A stretch of 64,000 nucleotides of DNA from Spizellomyces punctatus DAOM BR117 (Eukaryota > Chytridiomycota > Chytridiomycetes > Spizellomycetales > Spizellomycetaceae). The stretch is from NCBI RefSeq assembly GCF_000182565.1, contig NW_015971554.1, positions 462,680 through 526,679 on the forward strand, read 5' to 3'. Below are positions 61,948 to 64,000 of this stretch, piece after piece. The translations under genes were made by a program, and so were the position numbers. The notes beneath the pieces are model-generated. The model did not search any database. It had not been told where the DNA came from and saw only the letters and a list, made by a program, of their open reading frames with translations. Numbering within the stretch: position 1 is the first letter of the stretch; every line of letters begins with the position of its first letter.

Positions 61948-62130
61948 CCTTGGTTGGACTGTGATATTATGGTGCGGAGCCGATGGGTATTGGCACTAGT
62001 ACAAAGATTCCAACCAATTTAATCATAATTTTACTCGATTTAGACTCATGAACTATGGTTTGATCCACAAAATCCTATATAAGTCATCGTCCATTTTCCC
62101 AGGCTTTCATCTTTTTCTACAGATATCATC

Positions 62131-62607
62131 ATGCCACCAAAGAAGAAGCAAAAGCTTGAAAAACTTGACAAACCCACTTTACATACCTGCAACAAGACTT
62201 CCTTTGCAAAAGCTTTCCTGCCAAACTATCACCAATGGCTTTGAGATTACATCACCATCATCCATCAACTTGCTGATCATGCTTCCCATGCTCTCAAATT
62301 CTACATCCTATCTGCACCAACCTTTCCCACAGTAAATGAAGATACAATCGAAGCCATCCTGTATCTTCTCAACAAGGCGGAGGCTTGGCAACCAAGAACG
62401 GATGCAAAGAAGGTGATATGCAGATGCTTGTTGCCATATGTTCAACGGTACTGCCAAATTGTCAGCTTCTTTCACCCAAATCTATGAGGCAAGCAGCAGT
62501 CAATCAATTACCTGACAGTGAGTATGATGACAAACCTGAAGGTCAACATTCAAGAACATTTCATGATGATGCTGTGTAACGTCAATCGACCAGATTGCTC
62601 TAGTTGA
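62131..62607 (+). pseudogene. N-terminal fragment of a Fanzor-like protein, with in-frame stops
   Basis: The frame from ATG 62131 begins with a basic, NLS-like stretch (MPPKKKQKLEKL). It continues through TGA at 62242-62244, then DYITIIHQLADHASHALKFY and ILSAPTFPTVNEDTIEAILY, resembling the helical N-terminal segment of Fanzor proteins. A second TGA is at 62485-62487 and a third at 62605-62607, after VNIQEHFMMMLCNVNR. Neither internal stop sits in an obvious intron, so I call it broken. Similarity is judged from memory of the family pattern. Confidence 0.55.
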
Positions 62608-63055
62608 CATTTTTCTTGTGAATTGTTGGGCCCTGCGAGAGGGCTGTATAAAGACTTTGTTGTTAATACAAGATAAAGGGGACTATTGATAGTTCCTCGC
62701 GTTGCTAACTAGGCTAGTTGTTCTTCTAGTTTTTCCTTGCTTGCTGCCCTCCTTCCTGAGGGGTTTTGGAGCAGCGCTCTTTTTATGCTTGCTCCCTCCT
62801 TCAGCAGGGCGTTGGCCTGAGATTTCCCGCCTCCGCTGGTGCGGTCCCTCTTGCACCAATCGGAAGTGATTGGCGCTAGCAAATAAAGGGACAAATAATC
62901 TTCTAACTACGGGGCCGCCGCGGAACCGAACGACTTTGACAGGTCATCAGCATGGCGGGGCTTACATAATCTAACTACTGTTACGTGCTGTGCCATACTT
63001 TGGCCATACATGGCTACATGATCACTATAGCTATATATGGTGATGTGAGGGCAAG
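62608..63055. other. sequence of unknown origin between the two Fanzor-like fragments
   Basis: About 450-500 bp without similarity to the flanking coding fragments. It has a TATA-like TGTATAAAG at about 62642, pyrimidine-rich plus-strand tracts and a short inverted repeat (CCAATC/GATTGG) near 62856-62873. The TGTTGG...CAACA-type edge at about 62622 resembles an LTR end, but I found no matching other end or target duplication. Confidence 0.35.
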
Positions 63056-63829
63056 ATGCGTCGCGAAAATCTAAGTTCACACGAAAGTGCAAATACTAAA
63101 GGACAGGTCTACCTTACAATGCTGCTCCGATATATCAATCTGCGGCTTGATGTGAAGGGATGGAAAGGGCAACTGCCACCGAAAAGTGATGCACGAAAAG
63201 CTTTCTTTACTCAGCTACACTATTTAAAGTCAGTTTTTCTTTTTGATATCATGCCTGAGTCGCTGGATGACTTGACTGCTGAAGAGAGTGAGCTTCTAGA
63301 AGAGATCTGGACACTTAACCTGCCATTTCCTGATCAAGACAAGCTGCTTGCCTACCTCATTGCCATTGACGTGATGTCCTTCTTTCCTGCATACTGTCGG
63401 TTGTCAAGCCTATATGAAAAGCATGGATTTCAACGGTTCAGTGCCATACCTCTGCACCACTCGCTCATCCAAAGCCACATTCGCATCGACTCCAAAATCC
63501 TGTACCAGCATATCCTTTGCATCATGCAGCGAGAAGCAGAAGCCATAGAGAAGGTCGATTTATGGTTGCGTGTCTGTAATCTATGTACCAAAACTTTTCG
63601 GTCTCACTGTGATATGCAGTTTGAAGGCTCGATCACAATGGATGGTACCTCGGTGTCTGTGTATTTGAAACACCCCAATGCCAACAAGTACGGAAAGCAT
63701 GGAGTGAGAAAGTCAGCAAAGACCCTAGAAGCTGAGGTGAAGGCAGTATATGTGGAGAACAACTTACCTTGTGACAGAATTCTTCTGTCAGTGCTATGGT
63801 TATACTGGTTAGATGTGGTTCCAAACTAG
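63056..63829 (+). pseudogene. central fragment of a Fanzor-like protein, ending before or at RuvC-I
   Basis: An open frame of 257 codons. Family-like text starts about residue 17 (YLTMLLRYINLRLDVKGW) and includes FSAIPLHHSLIQSHIRIDSK, comparable with the PLR-x-S-x-IP-x-x-I-x-ID pattern of Fanzors, and MQFEGSITMDGTSVSVYL, comparable with the TDG-x-SVS strand that precedes RuvC-I in TnpB/Fanzor proteins. The frame ends at TAG 63827-63829, where the RuvC-I aspartate is expected. WLDVV at the end, with GSKLVVT in the next frame, suggests a single-base frameshift inside RuvC-I. The remaining 170 bases have more stops. The first 16 residues are probably not part of the ancestral protein. Confidence 0.6.
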
Positions 63830-63891
63830 TGGTCACATGACTTTGCTGATGGTGTCAGCATTCATTTGACCAGAATTAGATAAATAAGCAG

Positions 63892-63913
63892 ATTTAGCCA
63901 TTTCTGGCTAAAT
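63892..63913. repeat. perfect 9-bp inverted repeat with 4-nt loop
   Basis: ATTTAGCCA (63892-63900) and TGGCTAAAT (63905-63913) flank TTTC. It lies 63 bp past the Fanzor-like frame end. It could be a transcript hairpin or chance. Confidence 0.6.
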
Positions 63914-64000
63914 TAGATGAGTATCCTGACACACTGGCATCTGCCCCTTTCAATCAAGTGGCACAGTGTATTTAGGATGACTTGTCTCACTTGTGATTGG

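Follow-up and report, generated by a model that had tools for sequence, protein, structure and literature searches.

Spizellomyces punctatus is the species in which Fanzor was first described, and the right edge of a 64-kb stretch of its genome (here called the window; its end is also the end of contig C18) carries what looked like a broken relative of that gene. The original prediction placed a decayed Fanzor-like element between positions 62050 and 64000, on the basis of two collinear fragments, and took the broken copy as a sign of active relatives elsewhere in the genome. The locus raises the question of which family the fragments belong to, what killed this copy, and whether its decay tells us anything about the other copies. 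Both the fragments and their surroundings were compared with the whole genome (24.0 Mb in 29 contigs), with solved structures and with the published descriptions of the family.

Identity of the element

The two collinear fragments are real and lie far above chance. In a search against the sequences of solved structures, window positions 62245–62487 matched S. punctatus Fanzor1 (SpuFz1, PDB 8gkh) with E = 1.1e-36 and positions 63119–63829 with E = 1.6e-105, so that the Fanzor-like assignment holds and can be made exact as Fanzor1. A match of the first piece to 7pvp (E = 0.00067) was taken as chance. The SpuFz1 gene itself lies at C17:213846-215756 (637 residues, 100% identity), and another intact copy, L015, matches 8gkh over its full length with 1267 bits, a Parasitella Fanzor1 being its sole further match among solved structures; the expected relatives are therefore present as intact copies.

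The profile-HMM check proposed with the prediction gave no significant match when run with Pfam and NCBIfam. Neither library returned a match for the Fanzor proteins, and Pfam returned for the window piece just two DUFs, both far under cut-off. As neither library has a matching model, an HMM test with these two would miss Fanzor, and the family identity is settled by sequence comparison with the solved SpuFz1.

The available text of Saito et al. (PMC10432273) puts the number of Fanzor loci in S. punctatus DAOM BR117, full or partial, at 42 and that of ghost elements at 134, and it describes Ty3 elements inserted within Fanzor genes or next to them. The window copy is one more locus of the published Spu-1 family, an already known kind, and its novelty is lowered because Spu-1 is the family in which Fanzor was discovered. 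What the locus adds is a decay signature and a CpG-free chromovirus at the right edge.

Anatomy of the window copy

Table 1. Features at the right edge of the window (positions count from the first base of the window).
Feature	Position	Strand	Evidence
TATG, at the usual CATA site (target motif CA plus TA target duplication)	61968–61971	+	5′ ends of siblings
Spu-1 5′ terminal inverted repeat	61972–62001	+	Mismatch-free pattern match (C18:524651)
Fanzor1 N-terminal part, NLS-like start, TGA at 62242 and 62485	62131–62574	+	SpuFz1 homology
LTR-A, solo LTR, 544 bp, TGTAACG...CCTTACA	62575–63118		6-bp direct repeat ATGCTG on both sides
Central part of Fanzor1, up to SpuFz1 residue ~375	63119–63769	+	SpuFz1 homology
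LTR-B, first 231 bp of a Ty3/chromovirus LTR, contig end inside	63770–64000	+	Genome repeat matches

The features are given in Table 1. The 5′ terminal inverted repeat of Spu-1 is exact in the window copy and puts the start of the element at 61968–61972, not at 62050. From the start codon ATG at 62131 the reading frame opens with the NLS-like N-terminus MPPKKKQKLEKL, in agreement with the basic start noted at the outset, and both PLHHSLIQSHIRID and MDGTSVSVYL were recovered, located within the second Fanzor fragment. The internal stops are likewise confirmed as two in-frame TGA codons, each of which falls at a CpG site of the nearest sibling (L010). The interruption that had been noted is the 544-bp solo LTR, and the apparent frameshift is not needed as a separate event, since the change of frame coincides with this insertion. 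The element does not extend to 64000 as Fanzor: homology stops at 63769, ahead of the first RuvC motif, and the last 231 bases are a different repeat. The RuvC catalytic motifs and the zinc finger are thus missing from the window copy, and neither a RuvC nuclease domain, nor an omega-RNA, nor a right end was found within the window. With two TGA stops, LTR insertions and a truncation, the copy is decayed, and its sequence marks it as a Fanzor1 pseudogene, a non-working member of the family.

According to the available text of the published descriptions, the omega-RNA of intact copies comes from the right inverted repeat and its guide from flanking DNA, and SpuFz1 cleaves matching DNA beside a target motif. 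A copy with neither RuvC domain nor omega-RNA in the window would be expected to do nothing now. The same sources give a CA upstream of the Spu-1 5′ repeat, an omega-RNA scaffold of 75 nt and a guide of 14–15 nt (PMC10432273), and, for the SPu-1 of Bao and Jurka, 33-bp inverted repeats with putative TA duplications (PMC3627910). One paper lists CATA and TTAA for GtFz1 and SpuFz1 “respectively” and later, in the text available, TTAA for GtFz1 (PMC11423790); because of this later assignment we take CATA for SpuFz1, which fits the siblings, whose 26 5′ ends read CATA in 22 cases and TATA in three, with one damaged repeat. The window copy instead has TATG. Loss of CATA was considered as the cause of death and dropped: the three TATA siblings and the window copy are broken, but so are many CATA copies.

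Sibling copies in the genome

The element region of the window has at least 71 genome matches among those listed (40 of 104 candidates scored), and 30 Fanzor loci were retrieved with their flanks. Twelve of these were translated, giving 585–655 residues from the first ATG; ten of the twelve have all of VIDPN, GDWS, KTSSVCP and WNRD, which we take to be RuvC and zinc-finger motifs, and the other two (L009 and L020) are without C-terminal motifs.

Several further observations concern the siblings. They have a mosaic appearance: identity to the 5′ and 3′ parts of the window copy is 85% and 91% for L009 and 89% and 77% for L012, and among L009–L038 the central protein region is made up of alternative blocks that turn up in differing combinations. 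Gene conversion among Fanzor copies may possibly account for this. Two copies at C9:617499-619382 and C9:622459-624342, 61% and 58% identical to SpuFz1, form a divergent subfamily. At C1:1430675-1431767 (L053) two Spu-1-type inverted repeats stand about 1.1 kb apart with no Fanzor match listed, possibly a deletion derivative. Outside the element at L015, positions 478–558 resemble the Spu-1 right end (83–92%), a solo remnant upstream of the intact copy. A search for DDE_3 domains gave no transposase partner for Spu-1: neither of the two matches in the genome lies near any of the 74 inverted-repeat matches, and L051 and L052 showed no long inverted repeats.

Decay of Spu-1 copies at CpG sites

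We aligned 32 copies (the 30 retrieved, the SpuFz1 locus L041 and the window copy) on the columns of L015, counted as CpG sites the 121 positions where 40% or more of the copies have CG, and scored a change to TG, CA or TA as a loss; the rows are related copies and not independent. The window copy has lost 39 of 63 family CpGs. It belongs to a hypermutated class of six copies with CpG losses of 53.5–73.6%, the remaining 26 having lost 9.1–33.6%, and no copy falls in the gap between 33.6% and 53.5%. Context-biased C-to-T change in repeats, one mark of RIP, is seen in a CpG context in six of 32 Spu-1 copies. Base composition agrees: the two Fanzor parts of the window copy have observed/expected CpG ratios of 0.33 and 0.54, compared with 0.79 in LTR-A and 0.78 in the 2 kb preceding the element. 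The surroundings of the hypermutated copies are also somewhat CpG-poor, with a median ratio in the 700-bp upstream flanks of 0.70 for the five other hypermutated copies vs. 0.92 for 25 others (Mann–Whitney p = 0.0045).

A CpG transition in a CGA codon yields a TGA stop. Across the Fanzor family (70 genome matches) 71 of 78 in-frame stops are TGA, with four TAA and three TAG. On this evidence we consider, with a probability of about 0.88, that the window holds a dead, truncated Spu-1/Fanzor1 copy whose stops arose by CpG-to-TpG/CpA mutation, likely by way of transposon cytosine methylation, and which two LTR ends interrupt. The pattern is read most simply as the deamination of methylated CpGs (5-methylcytosine) in silenced copies, and the alternative mutator would be a RIP-like process acting at CpG.

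Could the CpG-poor copies simply be the oldest, decaying neutrally with age? CpG sites mutate faster in many genomes, and the window copy has the highest non-CpG C-to-T change of all 32 rows (8.2%), so that its decay is mostly, not purely, of the CpG type. However, the transversions of the six CpG-poor copies (2.4–4.0%; window copy 2.8%) lie inside the range of the other 26, which is also that of all 32 (1.8–5.8%), and these copies are therefore not clearly older; the gap in CpG loss also speaks against gradual aging, which we regard as improbable. Slightly better placed, though still unlikely, is an active RIP-like process at CpG that strikes whole copies in bursts instead of passive deamination. 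The bimodal CpG loss without extra transversions and the predominance of TGA stops would both fit a burst confined to CpG, but dense methylation of some copies would leave the same pattern, and among the genome matches no RID-type enzyme was identified. Two DNA_methylase (PF00145) matches, at C3:1161561-1162127 (in a 1107-aa frame) and C3:228235-228555 (in a 173-aa frame), are candidates for the cytosine methyltransferase.

The central fragment might also have been retained because the shortened protein still has a function, such as regulating Spu-1, as the frame at 63044–63829 is open over 261 codons. This is highly improbable: two stops and an LTR separate the central part from the start, the frame continues into LTR-B, the central part has many CpG-type changes, and the omega-RNA and right end are absent from the window.

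Decay by methylation of CpG, our preferred reading, can be set beside published maps. In the available text of a 2025 paper, which mapped S. punctatus 5mC by nanopore, 5mC in Spizellomyces is confined to transposons, which favors this reading. Two published statements count against it: neither of the marks treated in the 2025 paper is held to shape base composition substantially across its species (PMC12695648), and a 2026 review, as far as available, describes 5mC in early-diverging fungi as near-undetectable (PMC13297926). No report of CpG hypermutation in Spizellomyces was recognized among titles and abstract openings of the open-licence literature, and the mostly-CpG decay pattern of Spu-1 copies looks new.

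The two LTRs

LTR-A belongs to a multi-copy family and adjoins Ty3-type chromodomain sequence elsewhere (L007:2895-3518). In the window, 11 of its 29 CpG sites are gone, a loss inside the family range of 7–16, so the order of events can be proposed only tentatively: both LTRs may have arrived after much of the CpG loss, perhaps in the order Fanzor decay, LTR-A, LTR-B.

LTR-B starts at 63770 with TGTGACAGAATTC and has 37 genome matches, 31 of them full-length over the 231 bp at 97–100% identity (the window's own counted). At L047 and L048 it follows a purine-rich tract, as expected of a 3′ LTR. A frame beside it at L049 has Integrase_H2C2, SH3_Tf2-1 and Chromo above cut-offs and rve below (23.7 bits; cut-off 32.6), and an LTR beside an integrase with chromodomain identifies a Ty3/gypsy chromovirus at this locus. 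Among the best 120 of 1,522 hits (7,991 candidates scored), the nearest database proteins to the frame share its domains at no more than 48% identity.

No CpG occurs in the part of LTR-B that the window contains (231 bases). The integrase frame at L049 has none in 1,479 bases, where 89 are predicted from composition; 500 random synonymous codings of it gave a mean of 72 (minimum 54), and 1,000 reshuffles of its own codons among like residues a mean of 35 (minimum 22). All 27 of its arginines are AGA or AGG, vs. CGN for 48 of 56 in the intact Fanzor L015. Window and loci together comprise 349,671 bases, overlapping sequence included, and contain ten CG-free stretches of at least 400 bp, eight of them similar to each other and to LTR-B; one of the remaining two lies within a Copia-type integrase frame at L049. 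L050 has no CG in 3,231 bp, flank partly included, and L047 a single CG in its first 1,953 bp. The sampled LTR and integrase parts of the family (63770–64000 of the window, L045, L047, L049, L050), from which its CpG figures derive, are practically without CpG. The depletion is not general to Ty3 elements of this genome, since CpG ratios of 1.05, 1.04 and 0.84 were obtained for pieces of a different Ty3 family at L019, L024 and L030.

Stop codons differ as well. Among LTR-B family copies of at least 90% identity, TGA accounts for two of nine stops, and for six of 15 when fragments of 76–84% are added, vs. 48 of 53 among more distant matches (Fisher p = 4.9e-5 and 1.2e-4), these counts coming from 73 matches that are not independent and include mirror copies on C28 twice. 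Of 34 LTR-B positions, six are no more than 5 kb from a Fanzor start, where 0.82 are expected under uniform placement; the comparison used 34 of the 37 LTR-B matches (three of 61–68 bp dropped) and 61 of 70 Fanzor places, and the six include the pair in the window. With transposon clustering uncontrolled, an enrichment of LTR-B near Fanzor genes is only suggestive. CpG-free retrotransposons in Spizellomyces were likewise not recognized among titles and abstract openings of the open-licence literature, and the CpG-free Ty3/chromovirus family looks new.

A possible defence and a possible escape

These observations can be joined into one scheme. Methylation of a Spu-1 copy would cost it CpGs, and thereby arginines and CGA codons, and the copy would die; Ty3 elements would insert into such copies; and a retrotransposon family with no CpG left would be immune to such decay and could spread. 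Under this scheme S. punctatus would possess a CpG-directed mutational defence that kills Fanzor copies singly, and a Ty3 chromovirus would have escaped it by ridding its genes and LTRs of CpG, inserting into silenced dead copies including the Fanzor of the window. We offer this broader account tentatively, and hold it slightly more likely to be wrong than right.

Read from the sequence alone, the decay pattern suggests a way in which Fanzor genes are lost in the species of their discovery, and it predicts which Spu-1 copies are methylated. Spu-1 and the LTR-B family share one genome, and a CpG-free retrotransposon provides a natural test of whether an element that lacks CpG can be spared methylation and the mutations that come with it.

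Comparison with known systems

The window copy resembles Spu-1/SpuFz1 (PMC3627910; PMC10432273; PDB 8gkh) in protein family, inverted repeat and the layout of about 2.1 kb, but differs in being truncated before RuvC, in its two stops and two LTRs, and in having TATG in place of CATA. CpG decay is not discussed in the available text of these Spu-1/SpuFz1 descriptions (PMC3627910; PMC10432273). The decay is like the RIP and 5mC transposon decay of other fungi in that C-to-T change occurs in one dinucleotide context and in repeats; unlike them, the context is CpG and the host a chytrid, and the likeness is one of sequence pattern. LTR-B, with the Integrase_H2C2, SH3_Tf2-1 and Chromo domains of its neighboring frame, is like the Ty3/gypsy chromoviruses with a Tf2-like integrase carrying a chromodomain, and the near absence of CpG from the sampled parts of its family sets it apart from the other Ty3 family of the same genome.
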